From: Bacteroidales bacterium
GTDB taxonomy: Bacteria > Bacteroidota > Bacteroidia > Bacteroidales > UBA10428
Direction of reading: 5' to 3'
Assembly (NCBI GenBank): GCA_016926205.1
Contig: JAFGPB010000067.1
Span: 1-49,759, forward strand
Length of the DNA stretch: 49,759 nucleotides
The notes under the pieces were generated by a model. The model was not told where the DNA came from and did not search any database. It worked only from the letters and a program-made list of their open reading frames with translations. Positions 36,618 through 49,759 of the stretch are shown here, piece after piece. Position 1 is the first letter of the stretch. Each line of letters opens with the position of its first letter. The position numbers and the translations under genes are program-made.

Positions 36618-37703
36618 ATGACAGTAAATTTAATGCTTGAACCGTTCACGTTCGAAGGAGTTCCTTCAGAACGACCCCTGCTTCTGGCAGGTCCGTGCAG
36701 CGCTGAAAGTGAGGAACAGATAATGAGCGTTGCGGCACAGGTAAAAGAAATGGGGATCCATATATTCAGGGCCGGATTATGGAAACCGCGTACGCGTCCG
36801 AACACCTTTGAAGGCGTCGGTAAAACGGGACTGCCCTGGCTCAAAAGAATAAAAGAAGAGCTGGGCCTGTATGTTGCCATTGAAGTGGCAAATGTCAAAC
36901 ATGTGTATGAAGCCCTTAAACATGGGATCGACATCATATGGCTGGGTGCAAGGACCACGGCAAATCCGTTTGCCGTCCAGGAGATAGCCGATGCGCTTCA
37001 GGGGGTCGACATTCCCGTCATGGTGAAGAATCCTGTCAGTCCGGATGTGGAATTGTGGATCGGTGCCATCGAGAGGATCAACCGGGCCGGTATCAGCAAA
37101 CTGGCAGCTGTCCACCGGGGATTCTCCGCATACGGCAGAACGTTGTACCGCAACAATCCCGAGTGGGAAATTCCCATTGAGCTGAAACGGCTGATCCCTG
37201 ACCTGCCCATCATCACTGATCCCAGCCACATATGCGGCAACAGGGAACTCCTTTTTGAAGTATCACAGAAAGCCATGGACCTTGAATTTTCGGGACTGAT
37301 GATCGAAACGCACTGTACTCCGGACCAGGCACTCAGCGATGCCCAGCAGCAGATCACTCCGGAGCAGCTGAAAAGGCTTTTATCACGACTAGTACTCAGG
37401 AAACCAGACATTCAAAACCAGATGTTATTGTCCACACTGGAAGAACTTCGCGACCAGATCGACCATTACGATGACAAACTGATGGAGATCCTGGAACTCC
37501 GCATGCAGGTTGCGGAAAAGATCGGTGAATACAAAAAACAGAACAACATCACGATCCTGCAGACCAGCCGCTGGGATGAGGTGCTGCGTTCGCGCATCGA
37601 GGACGGCAAAAAGAAAGGACTGGACGAAGAATTCATCATTAAAGTCTTCAGGGCCATCCACGAGGAATCCATCAACCACCAGACAAGGATCATGAATGAA
37701 TGA
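36618..37703 (+). CDS. DAHP synthase fused to AroQ-type chorismate mutase
   Basis: This bifunctional 361-residue protein catalyses the first step of the shikimate pathway and, at its C-terminus, the chorismate-to-prephenate branch step. The DAHP synthase part (about 1-265) is of the KDO8P-synthase-like class: LLAGPCSAES, FRAGLWKPRTRPNTFEGVG, GARTTANPFAVQEIAD and DPSHICGNRELL carry the phosphoenolpyruvate and metal sites. The chorismate mutase part (about 273-361) shows LRDQIDHYDDKLMEILELRMQVAEKI and a conserved arginine pattern. The gene starts two bases after pheA. The mutase supplies prephenate to both PheA and TyrA of the same operon. Its stop lies in an ATGA repeat that also carries the aroB start. 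Confidence 0.94.
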   Translation: MTVNLMLEPFTFEGVPSERPLLLAGPCSAESEEQIMSVAAQVKEMGIHIFRAGLWKPRTRPNTFEGVGKTGLPWLKRIKEELGLYVAIEVANVKHVYEALKHGIDIIWLGARTTANPFAVQEIADALQGVDIPVMVKNPVSPDVELWIGAIERINRAGISKLAAVHRGFSAYGRTLYRNNPEWEIPIELKRLIPDLPIITDPSHICGNRELLFEVSQKAMDLEFSGLMIETHCTPDQALSDAQQQITPEQLKRLLSRLVLRKPDIQNQMLLSTLEELRDQIDHYDDKLMEILELRMQVAEKIGEYKKQNNITILQTSRWDEVLRSRIEDGKKKGLDEEFIIKVFRAIHEESINHQTRIMNE

Positions 37704-37711
37704 ATGAATGA
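37692..37711 (+). repeat. Five ATGA units at the DAHP synthase-mutase/aroB junction
   Basis: ATGA is repeated five times without interruption. The stop of the upstream gene (37701-37703) and the aroB start codon (37708-37710) both lie inside it, so any change in copy number alters the stop-to-start geometry. Confidence 0.9.
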
Positions 37712-38745
37712 AGACAGTGACCATTTCGACTGATGCAAAAACCTCCAGGATCCTCATCGGAGAAAGACTCGGGAACCTGAAGAATTACCTTCCTCCGGGC
37801 AGAGCCATCATCATCACCGATGAGAACATCCTTGAATATTACGGGGATGTATTGCCGGATCTTCCCGTTGTGGTCATGGGTCAGGGTGAAAAAAGCAAAA
37901 CCCTTGAGACACTTCATGACATTTTTGACAAGCTGCTGGAATATGAAGCGGACCGGAGCACCTTCATCATCGGTATCGGAGGAGGCATCGTCTGTGATGT
38001 GGCCGGGTTCGCTGCTTCCATCTATATGCGTGGACTTCGCTTCGGATTTGTATCCACCACCCTGTTGTCGCAGGTCGATGCCAGCGTTGGCGGAAAGAAC
38101 GGCGTGAACTTCCGGAGGTACAAGAATATGATCGGCTCGTTCAGTCAGCCCGAATTTATCATTTGTGACGATCAGATGCTCGCCACCCTTGATCCGGTTG
38201 AGTTCAGGGCCGGTTTTGCCGAAATTGTCAAGGCAGCTGCGATCAGGGATGCATCCCTGTTTGAATACATGGAGAACAATTTCAAAGCAGCGCTTGAAAT
38301 GGATGGTCCCACCCTCGAAAAACTGATATATGAATCGGTCCGCATCAAAGCCTCGGTTGTCGAAAAGGATGAAAAGGAAAAAGGGGAACGGCGGAAACTG
38401 AACTTCGGTCATACTTTCGCACATGCGATTGAAAACCTGACAGACATGTTGCACGGAGAGGCAGTGAGTATCGGCATGATGCTTGCAGCGCGTCTTTCAG
38501 AAAAGCTGGGTTTCCTTGAAGGAACTGCAGTAATCCGCATTGAGCAATTGCTCAGGAACTTTGCATTACCAGTCAGTTTGAATCTGGACCCGGATCAGGT
38601 GATCAACACTATGAAAAAGGACAAGAAACGTGAGGGAGATGCGATTCACATGGTGTTGCTTGACCGGATCGGATATGCATTTACACATGAAATTGATTAT
38701 AAACAATTAGAAGGATTGTTGTATGATTTGTGTCAGTATCGGTGA
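37708..38745 (+). CDS. aroB: 3-dehydroquinate synthase
   Basis: AroB cyclises DAHP to 3-dehydroquinate, the second shikimate step. The 345-residue protein shows the NAD-binding GQGEKSKTLETL and IGIGGGIVCDVAGFAASIYMRG region, then TTLLSQVDASVGGKNGVNF. The zinc-ligand segments FRAGFAEIVKAAAI and LNFGHTFAHAIE follow. The start is fixed by an in-frame TGA directly upstream. It begins four bases after the preceding stop and its end overlaps aroD by 23 bases, so translation is tightly coupled. Confidence 0.95.
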   Translation: MKTVTISTDAKTSRILIGERLGNLKNYLPPGRAIIITDENILEYYGDVLPDLPVVVMGQGEKSKTLETLHDIFDKLLEYEADRSTFIIGIGGGIVCDVAGFAASIYMRGLRFGFVSTTLLSQVDASVGGKNGVNFRRYKNMIGSFSQPEFIICDDQMLATLDPVEFRAGFAEIVKAAAIRDASLFEYMENNFKAALEMDGPTLEKLIYESVRIKASVVEKDEKEKGERRKLNFGHTFAHAIENLTDMLHGEAVSIGMMLAARLSEKLGFLEGTAVIRIEQLLRNFALPVSLNLDPDQVINTMKKDKKREGDAIHMVLLDRIGYAFTHEIDYKQLEGLLYDLCQYR

Positions 38746-39361
38746 AAAAAACCTGGAAATATGTCTGGCATATCTGGAAAAGCCCGAGATTGCCGAGATC
38801 CGTCTGGACCTGACGGAATTTTCAGATGCGGAAACAGAGCAGGTATTTGCCTTGAAGAAAAAACTGATCGCCACCTGCCGTCCCGGAAAGTACAGTGATG
38901 ATCAGCGCACCCACAGGCTAAAAACCGCGATAAAGGCCGGGGCATCCATTGTCGATATTGAATATGAATCACCTGTTGCCTACCGGAAAGAATTGATGGA
39001 ATATGCCCGTGAATGCCATTGTGATGTGATGATATCCTATCACAATTTCGAATACACGCCTCCCCTTCAGGATCTCGAGAAGATCATGCAGGATTGTTTC
39101 GACATGGGTGCCAACATAGCCAAGATTGCCACCATGGTCAATATGAACCGGGACAATTCCAAGATCCTTTCCCTCTATAAAGCTCCCGGCCGGCTGGTTG
39201 CCATAGGAATGGGAGAGCTCGGCATAATCAGCAGGATCGTCGCTCCCTTCCTGGGCGCTGAATTCACTTATGCCTCACCGGATGAGGGTGAGCCGACAGC
39301 TCCCGGACAGATCAGGTTCTCCAGGCTCAATGATTTCATTATGAAAATACAGGAAATATAA
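38723..39361 (+). CDS. aroD: 3-dehydroquinate dehydratase, type I
   Basis: AroD makes 3-dehydroshikimate. The 212-residue protein is the type I, Schiff-base-forming enzyme. Lys134 (ANIAKIATMVN) is the imine lysine, His107 (ISYHNF) the general base, and Glu25 with Arg27 (EIRLDL) bind the substrate. The later GMGELGIISRIVAPFLG and PTAPGQIRFSRL blocks complete the site. It overlaps the end of aroB by 23 bases. The later shikimate enzymes (AroE, AroK, AroA, AroC) are not in this operon. Confidence 0.95.
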   Translation: MICVSIGEKNLEICLAYLEKPEIAEIRLDLTEFSDAETEQVFALKKKLIATCRPGKYSDDQRTHRLKTAIKAGASIVDIEYESPVAYRKELMEYARECHCDVMISYHNFEYTPPLQDLEKIMQDCFDMGANIAKIATMVNMNRDNSKILSLYKAPGRLVAIGMGELGIISRIVAPFLGAEFTYASPDEGEPTAPGQIRFSRLNDFIMKIQEI

Positions 39362-39371
39362 AACTATCGCA

Positions 39372-40142
39372 ATGAAAATACTGGTCGTGGGCGCAGGAAA
39401 AATGGGATCATGGTTCATTGAATCCCTGTGCCTCGATTATGAAGTGGCTGCTTTTGACAGGGACCTGACACGAATGCGTTATCTGTTCAACACGCATAAG
39501 CTCTTATCCCGCGAAGAGATCCGGGAATATGAGCCTGAAATGGTCATTAATGCTGTGAACCTTGAAAAAACACGGGACGTTTTCCTTGAATTGCTGCCGT
39601 TTCTGAAAGAGGACTGCATCCTTGCCGACATCACCTCGGTTAAGAACGGTCTGGGTGATTTTTACAGGGAAACCGGACGCAGGTTCGTTTCAACCCATCC
39701 CATGTTCGGTCCGACATTTGCAAATATCAAGGATTTGGCCGGTCAAAGTGCCATCATCATCAGGGAATCCGACGAGGAAGGCAAGGTTTTTTTCAGGCAC
39801 TTCTATAAGTCCTTTAACCTGAACATTTTCGATTACACCTTTCTGGAACACGACCAGACCATCGCCTATTCACTGGCCACGCCCTTCGCTTCCACGCTTG
39901 TCTTTGCCTCCTGTATGAAAAAGCAGGAAGCCCCGGGTACCACCTTCCGGAAACACCATGAGATCGCAAAAGGATTGCTGACGGAGGACGACTTTCTGCT
40001 CTCCGAAATCATGTTCAGTCCTTTCGCCCTTGAACAGCTTGAAAAGATCGGTGACAAACTGGAGAACCTGGAGGAGATCATCAAAGCCAAAGACATCCAC
40101 AAAATGCGGGAGTTTCTGGCTGAAATCCGGAAAAACATCTGA
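39372..40142 (+). CDS. tyrA: Prephenate dehydrogenase
   Basis: TyrA oxidatively decarboxylates prephenate to 4-hydroxyphenylpyruvate, the tyrosine precursor. The 256-residue protein starts with the dinucleotide fold VVGAGKMGSWF (5-15). The catalytic His109 is in STHPMFGPTF, and the helical dimerisation domain follows (EHDQTIAYSLATPF). It lacks fused mutase and ACT domains. It is the last gene of the operon, ten bases after aroD. Its presence beside pheA explains the mixed Phe and Tyr codons of the leader peptide. Confidence 0.93.
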   Translation: MKILVVGAGKMGSWFIESLCLDYEVAAFDRDLTRMRYLFNTHKLLSREEIREYEPEMVINAVNLEKTRDVFLELLPFLKEDCILADITSVKNGLGDFYRETGRRFVSTHPMFGPTFANIKDLAGQSAIIIRESDEEGKVFFRHFYKSFNLNIFDYTFLEHDQTIAYSLATPFASTLVFASCMKKQEAPGTTFRKHHEIAKGLLTEDDFLLSEIMFSPFALEQLEKIGDKLENLEEIIKAKDIHKMREFLAEIRKNI

Positions 40143-41610: not shown

Positions 41611-44265
41611 CTATTTTGTCACCTCTTCTGAATACCCCTCCCCGTAAAGATGGATAAAACCCACGATACTCCTGACCTCAACGCCTGTTATGCGGGGTTC
41701 ATAGACATCACAAATATAATAGTATACGCCGGATGCGACCTTATTGCTGGTATTCCGGTAATAGCCGTTCCAGTTGATTGCCGGATCGCTTGTCTCGTAA
41801 ACCAGCTGGCCGTAACGGTTGTAAATCTTCATATCAACCTTTTCAATCGCTTTGCTGAGATTTTTAGCAACAAATACATCGTTGATGTTATCACCGTTAG
41901 GAGAAAACACGTTGGGCAACTCGTAACTGACACATTCGTCCACACAGATCCTGACAGAAAAGTCGCTTTCGTTCTCGAACGAATCCACGGCAGTTACTGC
42001 ATAGCAGCCCGCCATCAGGGTACCTTCCGTGAACCTGTGGTAGAACACGGTATCGGTCGCCGGAGCCGTATAGGCAATTGAATCAAGCGGAGACTGCAAG
42101 TCACCTGTATAGTATATATTATAACGGATCACATCGTCGGCACAGGTCCGGTTGGGATTCGTCCATGTAAGCACATTCATAAAGCTGTCACATTGTGAGA
42201 CCACATACAGGACGGGCGGACACGGAGGTGTGATGTCCACGGGCGTGCCAATGTTGAGATGCGAAAAGTTCGAATTGGTGAAGACGACTCCCTTTATGGG
42301 CCGCCAGCCCTGACTTTCCACCTGGTACACATAGGTCTCACCGTTTTTGAGTCCGGTGTCCACATAAACATTGCTGTTGCTTGTGTCTATGGGAACAAAT
42401 TCCAGTGCGCTGTTCTGCCTGTAAATGATATAGGTGTCATTGATCCAGGGAGCTTTTTTCCTGATATCCAGCGTGAGCTGGTTGTCATCCGGGGTGATCT
42501 CAATATACAGCGAAGAGGCGATCTCCTGCTCCCCGGGACGAAGCTGAAACCTGTTTCCCGGTGTGTTGTTGAACATTTTCACCGAATAATAATAAGGAAA
42601 ATCCACCGTATTGAGCACATCAACATATGTGGTGTCATCAAGATCGGAAGTCAGGACCGAATCGATCAGCACCATATCCTCCATATCATAAGTCGCAGAC
42701 CTAAAGACCTGGAAGACATAGGGACCGGGTGCACCGGTCAGGTCAGCAGCATCCGGCTTTGCCCAGGCAAGAAAAATATTGCCGTCAGCCAAATCGACTT
42801 TTGTGACACTGACGTTGAGGATGGACGGAAAACCCGGAACAAGGGCGCTGCAGACTTCACCTGAAGCCAGACTCTCATACTCATCATCATAAAATGCTGT
42901 TACCATATAACAATATTCAACACCCTGGATAAGTCCTTCCCCTTTGTTGTCATCCACATACACCGTGTCATCCCGACCGTTGAGCACGGCAATCCTTTCG
43001 AATCCGGTATATGCAGGCACTCCGTACTCGCAACTGTCAGGTGTGAATCCGTAACTGCCTTCCCTGCGGTACAGGAAATAACCCCGAACCGGACCGCAGT
43101 CGCTGCGGTTCCAGGCAAGCTCGATCTCCGTGCTGGTTGCTGAAGCCTGAAGGTCCTCGGGCGCAGGACCGATGATCCTGATGTTGAAGTTGTCAATGTC
43201 CACCAGGTTCACATCTTTGTTGTTGTCCTGACTCCTCACAACGACCTGGTAGGGCTGTTTCCTGATGTGGTCACAGTCGGTCTGCCAGCTGAAATCAGAA
43301 GTGATAAATCCCAGACCGCTGGCTATGGTCTGGTATGTAGCAGGACTGACATCCTGCTCAAACGGTCCCCCGAGGATCGTTTGTTTGATGGAATCCCCGT
43401 CCTCATCAACCGTTGTCACCTGAAATTCAATGAGTTCGCCTGCAATAACACAAAAATCCTCAAGGGGCGGATTCTCAGGTGGATTGTTGTCTGATTCAAC
43501 GACATCGATCTGCATATCCCGCACGATATTGCCTATTTTAACTCCTTTTCTCCACTCTTCGATATTCATGGCCACATTATAACGTCCTGTATCTACCGGT
43601 GCATACCATACGAGATCACCCAAAACGGGATCTACATAAAAGGTATCACTGGCTGCTGGAAAAGTGTAATTTGAAATTTCCTGCCCGTCCTGCCCCGTGC
43701 ATATGGCCAGTTTATAGGACAGGCTGTCCCCGTCAGGATCGTAGGCAGCCGCATTGTGGATGAAAATATGCCCTCTTGCCGCCCGGTCAATGGGGAAATT
43801 CAGCAAAAGAGGCGTGCTGTTGTTTCCGATATCCGGACTGATGATAAAGGTGGTTTTAATGGAAAACACCACATTTACGGAATTGGGTATGTTCGCGATG
43901 CCGTAATTGCGGTTGGGATCCTGCATCATGATCTCATATATTCCGGGACCCGGGAATGTATGTGTTGCAGTATATATGTTATGATAATAATAGTTCGGCA
44001 GGATAGTCCTCTGAACCAGCGGAGCAACGGAATACGTATTGTCGCCCCACTCCACCGTGAGCTGCGACCGGTTCGCAGCACTTTGCGTATAAGTAAAAGT
44101 AGCAATAGTTACTTCATAGGTATAGCCCGAAATGTGTTTAAAAGTAATTTCCCCCGCCCTGTTGTGCGTGGCATAGCTCAGACCAGAATACAGCAGAAAA
44201 GTCATGACGACAACCAGAACCCTTTTCAAAACCCTAGTGTTGGTATTTCCGGGCAGCTTTTTCAT
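41611..44265 (-). CDS. Large secreted multidomain protein with T9SS type B (gliding-motility) C-terminal domain
   Basis: From the ATG at 44265 the protein is 884 residues, with a long basic signal peptide ending in SGLSYA. An in-frame codon at 44442 would add 59 residues before the signal and is unlikely. The N-terminal part starts THNRAGEITFKHISGYTYEVTI, typical of adhesin-like Bacteroidota surface proteins. Several fibronectin III-like domains follow (about 375-770; for example PEDLQASATSTEIELAWNRSDCG). The last 95 residues are the gliding-motility-associated domain (ELPNVFSPNGDNINDVFVA, IYNRYGQLVYETSD, NGYYRNTSNKVASGVYYYI), a signal for type IX secretion. A surface adhesion role is probable. 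Confidence 0.9.
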   Translation of the reverse strand: MKKLPGNTNTRVLKRVLVVVMTFLLYSGLSYATHNRAGEITFKHISGYTYEVTIATFTYTQSAANRSQLTVEWGDNTYSVAPLVQRTILPNYYYHNIYTATHTFPGPGIYEIMMQDPNRNYGIANIPNSVNVVFSIKTTFIISPDIGNNSTPLLLNFPIDRAARGHIFIHNAAAYDPDGDSLSYKLAICTGQDGQEISNYTFPAASDTFYVDPVLGDLVWYAPVDTGRYNVAMNIEEWRKGVKIGNIVRDMQIDVVESDNNPPENPPLEDFCVIAGELIEFQVTTVDEDGDSIKQTILGGPFEQDVSPATYQTIASGLGFITSDFSWQTDCDHIRKQPYQVVVRSQDNNKDVNLVDIDNFNIRIIGPAPEDLQASATSTEIELAWNRSDCGPVRGYFLYRREGSYGFTPDSCEYGVPAYTGFERIAVLNGRDDTVYVDDNKGEGLIQGVEYCYMVTAFYDDEYESLASGEVCSALVPGFPSILNVSVTKVDLADGNIFLAWAKPDAADLTGAPGPYVFQVFRSATYDMEDMVLIDSVLTSDLDDTTYVDVLNTVDFPYYYSVKMFNNTPGNRFQLRPGEQEIASSLYIEITPDDNQLTLDIRKKAPWINDTYIIYRQNSALEFVPIDTSNSNVYVDTGLKNGETYVYQVESQGWRPIKGVVFTNSNFSHLNIGTPVDITPPCPPVLYVVSQCDSFMNVLTWTNPNRTCADDVIRYNIYYTGDLQSPLDSIAYTAPATDTVFYHRFTEGTLMAGCYAVTAVDSFENESDFSVRICVDECVSYELPNVFSPNGDNINDVFVAKNLSKAIEKVDMKIYNRYGQLVYETSDPAINWNGYYRNTSNKVASGVYYYICDVYEPRITGVEVRSIVGFIHLYGEGYSEEVTK

Positions 44266-44347
44266 TGTCTCTTCAGGTGTACTTCCGTGTATCCTATTCC
44301 ATCTGCCATAAAATGTCCCCGCCGGTATCCTTTTCGATGACCTTTCC

Positions 44348-44365
44348 AATACCCCTCCGGGTATT
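44348..44365. repeat. Small perfect hairpin in the leader of the T9SS type B gene
   Basis: AATACCC (44348-44354) and GGGTATT (44359-44365) form a seven-pair stem with a four-base loop, 83 bases before the start codon. It may affect messenger folding between the DUF6702 and T9SS genes; no T-run follows. Confidence 0.4.
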
Positions 44366-44438
44366 TGCTTCTGTATCCATTTCAGCATCCCGTTCATGGA
44401 TGTAAAATTAACATTTCTGAGGTTACGAAAGTGAATTC

Positions 44439-44963
44439 TCAATTTCCATTTCCCAGTTCCCTATTCCTCATTCCCAATTCCACATTAAATATCCTGTTCT
44501 CCCAGTCAAACGTCAATCCCTTTTCATCATCTTCTGAAGCAACGATCACCAGGTTTGTCTGGTCGAAATACAGATCAAACATGATATGATTTGTCAATAT
44601 AAAATTGCTGCATCCGCCTTCCGGCAGTTCACCCTTAAAATAAAGCCAGACAGAATCCTCATTTTGGTCCTTACCTGTATACTCAAAGGTAACGATCGAA
44701 TCCTGATCCGGTCTGAGCACAAATGCCTCAGACATGTATCCCTCAATGGTGCCCAGTTCCTTTTCCGTAAAAGCAACATTGTCTTCCGGAATGATATTCA
44801 CCTCATAAAGATGAAAAAACAGCAATGAAAAATCATCCGTAAAAAACTTATGCGACACGGAAATCTCACCCTGCGCATGGTTAATGTCAACACTGGTAAT
44901 CGTAACATGCAGCGGATGACAGAAAAACAAACTAATAAACAGTAACAAATGGTGCAAGATCAT
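44439..44963 (-). CDS. DUF6702 family protein
   Basis: This 174-residue exported protein has a signal peptide followed by HPLHVTITSVDINHAQGEISVSHKFFTDDF, the diagnostic start of DUF6702, and the block SVWLYFKGELPEGGCSNFILTNHIMFDLYFDQTNLVIV. The domain is small and beta-rich; its function is unknown. In Bacteroidota it is often next to metalloprotease or surface-protein genes. Here it precedes the large T9SS protein by 173 bases. The last residues (GMRNRELGNGN) are encoded by a short repetitive sequence and are probably a late addition to the C-terminus. Confidence 0.85.
   Translation of the reverse strand: MILHHLLLFISLFFCHPLHVTITSVDINHAQGEISVSHKFFTDDFSLLFFHLYEVNIIPEDNVAFTEKELGTIEGYMSEAFVLRPDQDSIVTFEYTGKDQNEDSVWLYFKGELPEGGCSNFILTNHIMFDLYFDQTNLVIVASEDDEKGLTFDWENRIFNVELGMRNRELGNGN
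44444..44481. repeat. Degenerate TTCCCAATTCC-like minisatellite
   Basis: Variants of TTCCCAATTCC/TTCCCTATTCC recur from 44444 to 44481 in the 3' end of the DUF6702 gene. Similar seven-base repeats are scattered in many Bacteroidota and cyanobacterial genomes. Here they are translated. Confidence 0.7.
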
Positions 44964-46172: not shown

Positions 46173-47036
46173 ATGAGACATTATTTTTTAAGTGTCATTT
46201 CTATTATTTTCATTTTAATATCATGTAATACAATGCAAAAATCTGATAGTATTAGAATAATATTTTTACATCATAGTACAGGCTTAACCATTTGGAATGG
46301 TGATCCTTCTAACTTAATGTTTTATTATGGTAAGTTGATAAATAAGTTAACTGGTAAACAGAACAATTTTGCAAAAATTCCAAAGCTTTTAAAAAAGCAT
46401 AATAAAAATCATGGTACTGCTTATGTTATTGAGGAAAGAAATTTTCCTTCCATAAATCCTTATGGTTGGAATAATTATCCTTACGATTATTATAATATTT
46501 GGGTAAAAAATGCAGGAGATGAGCCCTATATGAATGAACCTACATTAGAGCTACTTACTGTGGATTATGATATTGTGATTTTTAAACATTGTTTTCCTGT
46601 AGGGAAAATAAATCCCGATAAAGATTCAATTGAAATTGATTCTGATTACAAATCAATAGGTAATTATAAAGATCAATACCTTATGTTGAGAAATAAAATG
46701 AGACAATTCTCTGAAACGAAGTTTATTGTTTGGACAGGAGCTGCATTGGTAAAATCACAGACAAATGAAGAAGAAGCAATACGGACAAAAGAGTTTTTTG
46801 ACTGGGTAATCAATGAATGGGATATTCCTCATGACAACATATATATATGGGATTTTTACAACCTTCAAACAAATGGTAATCTATATTTTCCTGAAAATTT
46901 GGCTCAATCTAGGACAGATTCGCATCCTAATAAATCTTTTGCTGAATTTGCGGCTGATTTATTTTTCAACAGGCTTATAGATGTTATTACCAATAATGGC
47001 TCCTCTACAAATCTTAAAGGTGAACTAATTTATTGA
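46173..47036 (+). CDS. Lipoprotein with SGNH-hydrolase-like features
   Basis: This 287-residue protein has a lipoprotein signal with lipobox LISC (Cys18). The mature start IRIIFLHHSTGLTIW holds a Ser in the place of a GDS-type nucleophile, and the C-terminal RTDSHPNKSFAEFAADLFFNRL has the Asp-x-His arrangement of SGNH esterases. The middle VDYDIVIFKHCFPVGK may carry the oxyanion-hole block. An acyl-ester hydrolase or transferase acting on a surface polysaccharide is therefore plausible but unproven. Codon use is strongly AT-rich compared with the genes before 45000. It lies 48 bases before the acyltransferase gene on the same strand. Confidence 0.65.
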   Translation: MRHYFLSVISIIFILISCNTMQKSDSIRIIFLHHSTGLTIWNGDPSNLMFYYGKLINKLTGKQNNFAKIPKLLKKHNKNHGTAYVIEERNFPSINPYGWNNYPYDYYNIWVKNAGDEPYMNEPTLELLTVDYDIVIFKHCFPVGKINPDKDSIEIDSDYKSIGNYKDQYLMLRNKMRQFSETKFIVWTGAALVKSQTNEEEAIRTKEFFDWVINEWDIPHDNIYIWDFYNLQTNGNLYFPENLAQSRTDSHPNKSFAEFAADLFFNRLIDVITNNGSSTNLKGELIY

Positions 47037-47084: not shown

Positions 47085-47729
47085 ATGTCTGATATCTATA
47101 AAGTTGATTTCAGTGGTTGGTATTTTAAATTATTATTTGTTTTCAGAAATAAATGTCGTGTTGTTTTTTTCAATTGGTTAATTCAATTCATATGTTACCT
47201 TAAAAGGGTTAAATTAGGTAAAAATGTTATTTTTAACGGTAGTCCAGTCATACGTAGATATCCCAATTCAAGAATTATTATCGGCAATACCTGTGAATTC
47301 AACTCAGCAAGGAATTCAGTTATGGTTGGCTTACTTAGACCCTGTACATTCATAACACTTACTAAGAATGCTGAAATTACTATTGGAAATAGCACAGGTG
47401 CCTCAGGAGTTACAATTGTTTCAGCAACAAAAGTCAAAATAGGGGATAATGTCTTAATTGGAGCTGACTGTACTATTGTAGATAATGATTTTCATCATGC
47501 TGACCCCAATAAACGAATTCATGAAGGTTATCCTTCAAGGCCTGTTGTTATTGAGGATAATGTTTTTCTTGGTTTTAACTGTCTTATATTAAAAGGAGTC
47601 ACAATTGGAAGAAACTCAGTAATAGGGGCTAACAGTCTTGTTATCAAGTCAATACCTCCCAATTCAATAGCCTTAGGAAATCCATGCAAAGTGATAATAA
47701 AAAGAAATTGGGAAAACTTTTTTTCATAA
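47085..47729 (+). CDS. Hexapeptide-repeat acyltransferase
   Basis: The 214-residue protein has a left-handed beta-helix made of hexapeptide turns (about 45-205), with the acetyltransferase hallmark VLIGADCTIVDNDFHHADPNKRIHEGYPSRPVVIEDNVFLGFNCLILKGVTIG. The histidines in DFHH match the catalytic pair of the maltose/galactoside O-acetyltransferase branch. It probably adds an acyl group to a sugar of a surface glycan in the cytoplasm. A hydrophobic patch precedes the domain. Its last six bases overlap the convergent asparagine-synthase-like gene. The gene is AT-rich like its neighbours. Confidence 0.88.
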   Translation: MSDIYKVDFSGWYFKLLFVFRNKCRVVFFNWLIQFICYLKRVKLGKNVIFNGSPVIRRYPNSRIIIGNTCEFNSARNSVMVGLLRPCTFITLTKNAEITIGNSTGASGVTIVSATKVKIGDNVLIGADCTIVDNDFHHADPNKRIHEGYPSRPVVIEDNVFLGFNCLILKGVTIGRNSVIGANSLVIKSIPPNSIALGNPCKVIIKRNWENFFS

Positions 47730-49466
47730 AAACCGAATAGGTGTTCCTTGAGATGTTTCCTGAAGCCATAGCTCGAAAGATATCAAGTTGATCATAAACT
47801 TGTCAATTGAAAAATTTAAAAATAATTTTTTTTTATTGATCAGGCATGTTCTATTTCCAATGTATATGCTAATGATTCTCTCCAGCTCAACCTGATTAAA
47901 TAGGGGTGAAGACAACATACTTTCATAATTTAACAACTCGTTTAGAAACTGACTGTTATTTTTCTTTAACCAATAGTGATAATTGGCTATATCCGGATGT
48001 TTGAATAATTGCATATGAATAATCTTAGTTGAAATTTTATTACCGAAAAGTTTTAAATATTTAATTATTCTACCTGTATTATAGTATGTAAGATCCGCAA
48101 GATATTTACTGTTATTGCCTATTATATATTCATGCAATTTGGCATTAATCATGTCTTTAAAATCGGCAAATTTGAGTTGTTTCAATAAAGTCTTATTAAA
48201 AAAAGCGCCAAATATCTTAAAATATCTTCCTGTGAGCTTAAGACTGTTTGCAGCAATATTAGAACAATAAATATTAAAAAGATAATAACGCGTAAAATCA
48301 AGTTTACTTTTTGCCAATTCCGCTTTATTCAGAACTTCAAAAACAGAATCAATTAATCCTTTTTCAATTGAGTCTGCATTTTGTCCTGTGAAAAGATTAT
48401 TGTAAAAATCAATTAGTCTTATCCGAAAGAAAAAGGCACTTGGTGTCTGATATACAATAAATCTTGCAATATCTGTTTTATTATTTGATATAGGTAGATT
48501 ATTACCAAATGGATGGTGCCTGTATAGTTGGTTACCAAGTATTCCTGTTAATAACAAATCACCTTTACCTGCTTCTTCTTCAAGTAATTCATAAACGTGC
48601 AGATATTCTATGAAAGGTAAATGTCCGTAAAGAATTCCTGCCTTGCCTTTTACTTTTAATTTTAAATCTTTTCCATTTTCTTCGCCTGTCATATAATGCA
48701 GGTGTTCTATACCATAGTATTTTGCAATGGTTTTTGCCAATTTAACATCAGAATGATATGATGGACCTTGTGTATAACAATGCAATTTTTCTTTGCTTTT
48801 AAGACAGGCAGACAGTATTAATCTTGAATCACGACCTCCAGTCAAGGGAAGCACAATCTTTTGTTCTAACTCAAAAGCCTTATTAATATGTCTGTTAAAT
48901 TCAGACCTGAATTCATCCTTTGACATCATTTCCTTTTTCTGAATATCCAAAATATCCCAATATTTCTCTCTAATAATTTCCAATTTTTTGGTAATAAGAT
49001 AAATGGAAGAACCTGAAAATTTTCTCACACCATGAATAAGTGTTTTATCTCCCAATACATATCCGAAGTTCAGATATTCAATCACAGATTTTTTATTAAT
49101 ATCAAAATGAGATATCTGCGGAATAAAAGCTTCTATTTCATCTGAAAGTGTAATCTGTTCTTGATTCAGCATATAGTATAACATATAAATTCCATAACGA
49201 TCTGTATAAACTTTACATATTTTTCTCTTCTTATTAATATAGATTATTGAAAAAACACCATCTATGTCATGAATAAAGAGGTTTTTTTCTTCTAAGATCT
49301 TAGTTGATAGTTCATTTGCTAATACCCATTTTTTTTCATTACAATAATAAGGATAGCCGTAAACAACAATAATCATAGATTCGTTTTCAAAATAATCTAA
49401 ATCCTTTGTTTTAATCAATGGATCAAAAAACAATTTGCTCCAATCATGTGAAAGTGTTATCTGCAT
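47724..49466 (-). CDS. Asparagine-synthase-like ATP-pyrophosphatase protein lacking the glutaminase Cys
   Basis: This 580-residue protein resembles class B asparagine synthases. The N-terminal glutamine-hydrolase-like domain (about 1-160) contains DIDGVFSIIYINKKRK and YTDRYGIYMLYY, but the nucleophile Cys2 is replaced (the protein starts MQI), so it cannot release ammonia from glutamine in the normal way. The synthetase domain has the PP-loop PLTGGRDSRL (207-216) and continues to about 450. Such proteins often occur in polysaccharide or natural-product loci as amide-forming or degenerate enzymes. It converges with the acyltransferase gene. It is AT-rich. The actual reaction is unknown. Confidence 0.82.
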   Translation of the reverse strand: MQITLSHDWSKLFFDPLIKTKDLDYFENESMIIVVYGYPYYCNEKKWVLANELSTKILEEKNLFIHDIDGVFSIIYINKKRKICKVYTDRYGIYMLYYMLNQEQITLSDEIEAFIPQISHFDINKKSVIEYLNFGYVLGDKTLIHGVRKFSGSSIYLITKKLEIIREKYWDILDIQKKEMMSKDEFRSEFNRHINKAFELEQKIVLPLTGGRDSRLILSACLKSKEKLHCYTQGPSYHSDVKLAKTIAKYYGIEHLHYMTGEENGKDLKLKVKGKAGILYGHLPFIEYLHVYELLEEEAGKGDLLLTGILGNQLYRHHPFGNNLPISNNKTDIARFIVYQTPSAFFFRIRLIDFYNNLFTGQNADSIEKGLIDSVFEVLNKAELAKSKLDFTRYYLFNIYCSNIAANSLKLTGRYFKIFGAFFNKTLLKQLKFADFKDMINAKLHEYIIGNNSKYLADLTYYNTGRIIKYLKLFGNKISTKIIHMQLFKHPDIANYHYWLKKNNSQFLNELLNYESMLSSPLFNQVELERIISIYIGNRTCLINKKKLFLNFSIDKFMINLISFELWLQETSQGTPIRFL

Positions 49467-49673
49467 TTTTTTTCAAAACTTCCTGATATAAAAATATGAA
49501 TAACTGTATGTTAAGTATACAAGTGCTATTATAGATATTTATATGTTTAATAGTCTGTTTGTAATATTAATATTTAAATATGAAATTGTATGATCAAAAT
49601 AATTTATAAAATTGAAAATAGCATTTTGTTGTTTAAAAATGATATTGTTGATTGAATATTATGTTATTCAATA

Positions 49674-49759
49674 TGACCTCCCCCCGAAAAACAGGACACT
49701 TCTAAATTAGAGAACCTCGGGCAATTTTCGTAATATTAACATGGAGAAAATTGCAATGA
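49674..49759 (+). mobile_element. Left end of an IS3-family insertion sequence, cut by the window edge
   Basis: The sequence from 49674 starts TGACCTCCCCCCGAAAAACA and continues GGACACT, the usual TG-initial, C-rich terminal inverted repeat of IS3-family (IS150-like) elements. An ATG 67 bases inside (49741) is placed where orfA normally begins. Only the end is visible, so the other terminus, target duplication and transposase cannot be checked. Confidence 0.65.
49741..49759 (+). CDS. Start of a probable IS3-family orfA, partial
   Basis: Only the first six codons (MEKIAM) are in the window. The call rests on position behind the IS3-type terminal repeat and on the open frame, not on protein similarity. 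Confidence 0.35.

Follow-up and report, generated by a model that had tools for sequence, protein, structure and literature searches.

An AsnB-like protein without a glutaminase nucleophile from a Bacteroidales bacterium

The AsnB scaffold and its described uses

Glutamine-dependent AsnB and human ASNS (PF13537 and PF00733, TIGR01536) combine an N-terminal glutaminase domain, with a catalytic Cys and glutamine-binding residues, and a synthetase domain with an ATP-pyrophosphatase (PP) loop, SGGxDS, and a second motif, SG[DE]GxDE..GY. The scaffold already serves other chemistries as well, yielding lactams, lasso peptides, hydroxamates, nitriles and uronamides. Beta-lactam synthetase and carbapenam synthetase are not known to have a working glutaminase, and TsnB9 joins an acid to a nitrogen nucleophile.

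Members of the superfamily also act on the cell envelope. WbpS, WbqG and PGN_1234 belong to surface-glycan pathways and, in the excerpted text of PMC7468200, P. gingivalis no longer forms a uronamide once PGN_1234 (WbpS) is deleted, WbqG is reported to be required for the uronamide of E. coli O121 and WbpS is proposed to act likewise in P. aeruginosa. Amidation of peptidoglycan mDAP by Listeria AsnB is described in an excerpt of PMC8554201. The PGN_1234 uronamide and the mDAP amide provide a precedent for amide formation on an envelope carboxylate.

We analysed a stretch of 49,759 nucleotides, here called the window, which is the entire contig C106 of a Bacteroidales genome (2.24 Mb in 113 contigs, 87.9% complete). 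Near one end it encodes the protein considered here.

47724..49466, minus strand: AsnB-like protein without a glutaminase nucleophile, 580 amino acids, ATG start
49673..49759, no strand assigned: final 87 bp of the contig, an exact match to the end of C105, another contig of this genome

The window protein has in common with AsnB and ASNS the two-domain fold, the glycine and aspartate of the PP-loop, a DRxGI segment and the order of the motifs. It differs from them in having no Cys or glutamine-binding residues, a shorter N-terminus, replacements of the aspartate-binding acids and scores below the Pfam and NCBIfam cut-offs.

The gene and its shortened glutaminase domain

The ORF opens ATG-CAG (Met-Gln), hence residue 2 is Gln and not Cys, as an earlier note on this DNA had stated. 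That note allowed that a different start might restore a Cys at position 2, and such a start was sought in the first 100 codons without success; the ATG, GTG or TTG codons at residues 12, 17, 31 and 95 precede Phe, Ile, Ile and Leu. Upstream, the ATG is preceded by two in-frame codons (Lys-Lys) and then a stop. The contig ends 293 bp upstream of the gene. Since its last 87 bp coincide with the end of C105 the assembly breaks at a repeat, placing genes on the far side beyond view, and context is readable on the downstream side only. An Rfam scan gave no match at gathering scores.

Both Pfam domains score below their cut-offs (GATase_7, 23.4 bits against 25; Asn_synthase, 18.7 against 21) and the top NCBIfam match, TIGR01536, reaches 64.7 bits against 267.1. 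A profile built from the window protein and two close relatives, the trio, matches an AsnB profile with a probability of 99.6% (E 1.2e-23, residue 50 corresponding to AsnB 98); when the partner is a profile of nine Cys-less relatives, the probability is 99.9% (E 2.9e-31, residue 27 corresponding to 61). The AsnB match, together with full-length homologues in two other genomes, shows that this is not a chance ORF.

An AlphaFold model computed with 44 sequences has a pLDDT of 84.7 and a pTM of 0.88, though the input alignment included 41 AsnB rows from viral contigs (41 of 80 viral loci), which favours an AsnB-like outcome. A run on three sequences gave a pLDDT of 36.7 and was discarded. The two-domain AsnB architecture is found in the window protein by profile and by model, the latter with AsnB rows in its alignment. 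Among IMG/VR viral contigs, AsnB relatives were present in 258 of 372 candidate stretches, the best 80 of which were kept (L114-L193).

The top matches of the model to solved structures are TsnB9 (PDB code 7YLZ, Z 26.1 over 499 residues), AsnB (24.3), carbapenam synthetase (1Q15, 24.1) and beta-lactam synthetase (1M1Z, 23.9). Among the closest folds are enzymes whose nitrogen nucleophile is internal or unusual. Identity is low, at 10% with TsnB9, 10% with 1Q15 and 11% with 1M1Z. The TsnB9 loop, SGGLDSS, places a Ser after DS in the alignment where the window protein has Arg. In contrast to the two lactam-forming enzymes the window protein has an altered second motif, and no beta-lactam genes were recognised nearby.

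48957..49466, minus strand: residues 1-170 (approximate limit), remnant of a shortened class II glutaminase (Ntn) domain, with neither the Cys nor the glutamine-binding residues but with the DRxGI segment kept

For comparison, 67 hits were reduced to 57 distinct AsnB-like proteins, of which 23 have the Cys and 34 do not; they were chosen for their resemblance to the window protein and are not in phylum proportions. Tyr36 of the window protein aligns with AsnB N74 and follows 35 residues, whereas 73-75 residues precede the N74 counterpart in 18 of the 23 Cys-bearing proteins and 69 to 101 across all 23. With 35 residues against about 73, the window protein has no position homologous to the Cys. 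Gln2 describes the ORF correctly, yet on these alignments it is not a substitution at the homologous position of the catalytic Cys. The glutamine-binding residues of AsnB (R49, N74, E76 and D98 in E. coli numbering) correspond to a gap, Tyr36, Tyr38 and a gap or Asn51, respectively.

To describe the glutaminase domain as having lost its entire first half would go too far, as the model retains a first strand at residues 2-6. In the structural alignments, residue 1 of the model pairs with chain residue 3 of AsnB, human ASNS and GlmS. If the chains are numbered from Cys1, as we assume, the alignment begins past the nucleophile and no residue appears to occupy its position. The earlier statement that a glutaminase nucleophile is missing can be extended, as neither the Cys nor the R49 region, N74 and E76 are kept; judged by alignment, the window protein is without a working glutaminase site.

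The host genome encodes a Cys-bearing AsnB as well, on contig C65. On contig C6 (L113:1-4965), kinase-like, sulfotransferase-like, Cys-less AsnB-like and nucleotidyltransferase-like ORFs were noted by eye in a row, the AsnB-like one having an MPPI start, SGGLDSS and SGFGGDE; the row presumably resembles paeninodin-type lasso peptide gene sets.

The synthetase site in the close family and in the wider Cys-less group

48822..48842, minus strand: residues 209-215, TGGRDSR, PP-loop; DS is followed by Arg, a feature of 32 of 34 Cys-less proteins
48510..48548, minus strand: residues 307-319, TGILGNQLYRHHP, altered counterpart of AsnB SG[DE]GxDE..GY, from alignments and profile comparison
48048..48086, minus strand: residues 461-473, YYNTGRIIKYLKL, C-terminal motif rich in positions that are invariant across the close family; the model has low confidence for part of it

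The loop TGGRDSR is intact, in agreement with the earlier note; the SGGxDS of AsnB reads TGGRDS, with Thr replacing Ser. Gly211 and Asp213 are conserved in 57 of 57 compared proteins, including all 34 without Cys. The residue after GGxD[STGC] separates the two classes: it is Arg in 32 of 34 Cys-less proteins (Lys and Ser in one each) and in none of the 23 with Cys. With its Arg and missing Cys, the window protein belongs with the former.

In alignments covering both, SG[DE]GxDE..GY pairs with TGILGNQLYRHH of the window protein, changed at I309, N312, Q313 and H318. SG[DE]GxDE itself reads TGILGNQ, with I/N/Q at the positions of human ASNS E364, D367 and E368, so that the acids which hold aspartate are gone. 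From spacing, and with numbering that we assume for AsnB, Glu363 and Tyr368 of PesC should equate with AsnB E352 and Y357, and with Q313 and H318 here. According to excerpts of PMC6748925, E364, D367 and E368 of human ASNS form a negative pocket; the mutants E364A, E364Q and D367A show no activity, and that of D367N is lower. The Glu363-Tyr368 dyad matters in PesC, as described in an excerpt of PMC13060819. Each of the 23 Cys-bearing proteins retains D, E and Y in the motif; in the Cys-less class these residues are found in 13, 13 and 1 of 34. The loss of these acids fits an altered acid substrate as well as it fits inactivity. The earlier note named loss of synthetase catalytic residues as grounds for rejecting its proposal, and this has happened in part, the second-motif acids having gone while the PP-loop is kept.

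The two close relatives are full-length proteins from Bacteroidales MAGs, JAFGWC010000008.1 (40% identity) and JAFGEO010000118.1 (33%). The start point, truncation and motifs are common to the trio, in which 131 of 580 positions are invariant (three sequences). In stretches picked after viewing the alignment, invariance is 22 of 37 around the PP-loop (residues 204-240, p 5.7e-7), 11 of 19 at the second motif (304-322, p 7.6e-4) and 11 of 21 at residues 456-476 (p 2.3e-3). The stretch with the PP-loop is thus the most conserved one in the close family, and N312, Q313, R316 and H318 of the altered motif are fixed in all three members. That the conservation centres on the active site speaks against decay, and on present evidence the gene looks used.

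Matches better than 1e-31 outside the host genome were confined to these two relatives in searches of 197, 395, 393 and 395 genomes; the four samples overlap, one 395-genome search covered E <= 1e-30 only and the 393- and other 395-genome searches E <= 1e-12 only. A single-protein scan of genome contigs found no relative and an alignment-based scan found two loci, both already known. No relative was found in viral contigs scanned with A1 and A4, no phage record matched the window protein and, of 28 plasmid records, none reached 80% query coverage (best 44% among the matches listed, 10 of 28).

The uncharacterised Cys-less proteins with a GGxD[STGC]R loop resemble the window protein in the Arg after DS, the missing Cys and the changed second motif. 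The trio differs from them as a lineage of its own, on a long branch with support of 100/100 and the motif [TSQ]G[ID]LGNQ..R.HP, and in lying outside glycan operons. In the tree the 23 Cys-bearing proteins group with L020, which has Gly in place of the nucleophile, in a single clade of 24. The Cys-less proteins need not be one clade, since the deep order of their other lineages is weak and the program warned of long branches meeting. On the sequence comparisons the window protein is a divergent branch of a known superfamily, real and unusual.

Neighbours within two genes were collected for 29 of the 31 Cys-less loci besides the trio, leaving out L061 (missed by the ATG caller) and L020 (in the AsnB clade); the focal genes L014 and L021 were called short, from a later ATG. 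Among the 109 neighbouring proteins the glycosyltransferase domains PF13692 and PF00534 occur 30 and 29 times and PF13439 21 times, followed by PF02786 (ATP-grasp type) with 7, PGA_cap and polysaccharide deacetylase with 6 each and a further Asn_synthase with 2, in overlapping counts as one protein can match several families. The 29 of 109 for PF00534 was compared with the proteins of the window only, where the figure is 1 of 37; Cys-bearing AsnB genes, too, may sit in polysaccharide loci. Adjacent genes lie on the same strand within 60 bp in 40 of 60 cases counted with the two relatives included, and in 0 of 4 for the relatives themselves. PF02786 and PGA_cap recur near the Cys-less genes (L033, L034, L075-L102), a recurrence that hints at amino-acid or peptide chemistry on polysaccharides. 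Cys-less Arg-loop proteins of polysaccharide loci were not found as a topic in titles and abstracts among the literature matches listed, and a targeted search for such proteins in Bacteroidota found nothing.

Genomic context and possible functions

47085..47729, plus strand: hexapeptide-repeat acyltransferase, convergent neighbour with a 6-bp overlap at the stops; only a putative member of the system

The earlier note drew on this acyltransferase in suggesting a glycan role. The two genes converge and their ORFs overlap by 6 bp at the stops, so the acyltransferase is not an operon partner. One relative is flanked by a HAD hydrolase and LytB (above cut-off); the other adjoins a DUF1361 gene and a Thx-like ORF that scores under cut-off, and a Wzz-type gene lies some 3.5 kb off. 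The polysaccharide operon context that is common, but not universal, in the Cys-less group is seen for neither the window gene nor the relatives, and no biosynthetic partner genes were recognised beside the gene in any of the three. What survives of the suggestion comes from the wider Cys-less group, often placed among polysaccharide genes, by which a glycan is still a possible substrate. The link to glycans is fair in that group and putative for the window protein, for which such a substrate is the leading but weak guess.

Elsewhere in the window, positions 46173-47036 (plus strand), beside the acyltransferase, hold a 287-residue ORF whose start looks lipoprotein-like by eye and which matches nothing in Pfam or NCBIfam at E <= 1. 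At 41611-44442 (minus strand) lies the gene of a 943-residue protein carrying a type IX secretion signal domain, CHU_C. An aromatic amino acid run at 36618-40142 (plus strand) comprises DAHP synthase/chorismate mutase, 3-dehydroquinate synthase, 3-dehydroquinase I and, by eye, a prephenate-dehydrogenase-like gene.

What, then, might the protein do? Given an intact, highly conserved PP-loop and no glutaminase site, the natural reading is carboxylate activation with an external amine. This was also the proposal of the earlier note; the loop and the missing glutaminase speak for it, the I/N/Q counterparts of E364, D367 and E368 against. We consider the chances evenly balanced that this is an ATP-dependent, amide-forming (adenylating) enzyme of the AsnB superfamily that dispenses with glutamine hydrolysis and aspartate recognition. 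It would adenylate a carboxylate bound differently from aspartate, and the acyl-AMP would then be attacked by a free amine or ammonia from a source other than its own glutaminase. The substrate, in the most tentative step, might be a cell-surface glycan or a precursor, as suggested by the relationship to the wider Cys-less group. The envelope-amide precedents and the unusual nitrogen nucleophiles of the closest folds favour the formation of an acyl-adenylate from a non-aspartate acid. Against this stands the replacement by I309, N312 and Q313 of acids that human ASNS needs.

The same replacement, with the loss of the motif Tyr and two Pfam domains below cut-off, could mark a pseudoenzyme that retains the fold and nucleotide pocket for binding or regulation and not for catalysis. 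We think this unlikely, for invariance in the trio peaks at the PP-loop and is also high at the altered motif, which is itself fixed, and many other Cys-less relatives lack these acids while 34 of 34 keep the counterparts of Gly211 and Asp213. A distinctly improbable alternative is a tailoring enzyme of small molecules or peptides, of the beta-lactam synthetase, lasso cyclase or hydroxyamidotransferase type and with no tie to glycans. The hydroxyamidotransferase TsnB9 is the closest solved fold, the gene stands alone in both relatives and an excerpt of PMC13060819 describes lactam, lasso, C-terminal amide and nitrile chemistry among AsnB relatives. However, the TsnB9 match is one of fold at 10% identity, and biosynthetic partner genes were recognised at none of the three loci.

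An ammonia-dependent uronamide synthetase, in which ATP would activate the C6 carboxylate of a uronic acid in the glycan of the adjoining locus and free ammonia would give the amide, is also distinctly improbable. The earlier note regarded a uronic acid amide as poorly described, which no longer holds in view of PGN_1234, WbqG and WbpS (PMC7468200, in excerpt); that WbpS-type relatives make, or are proposed to make, uronamides is a point for this reading, as is the adjoining hexapeptide acyltransferase. Nucleotide-sugar dehydrogenases (PF03721) occur in all three gene-carrying genomes, but also in 13 of 14 control genomes, and were dropped as non-discriminating support. Against it, the neighbour is convergent, both relatives lie elsewhere and the window protein, without a glutaminase site unlike WbpS, WbqG and PGN_1234, scores 53.1 bits with TIGR03108 where 816.9 are needed for WbpS-type membership. 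Genomes G083 and G018 hold separate genes at 469 and 416 bits, also below the cut-off, which is reached in none of the 14 control genomes.

To return to the adenylating, amide-forming reading, a broader but speculative and probably incorrect version extends it to the whole Cys-less Arg-loop family. These proteins would be ATP amide ligases that join an amine not derived from glutamine, for example that of an amino acid, to glycan carboxylates such as those of uronic acids, the trio being a stand-alone branch with its own acid-recognition motif. If amines are indeed joined to glycan acids in this way, the family would explain amino-acid amides on bacterial surface sugars and could supply the missing enzymes for amino-acid-decorated polysaccharides.
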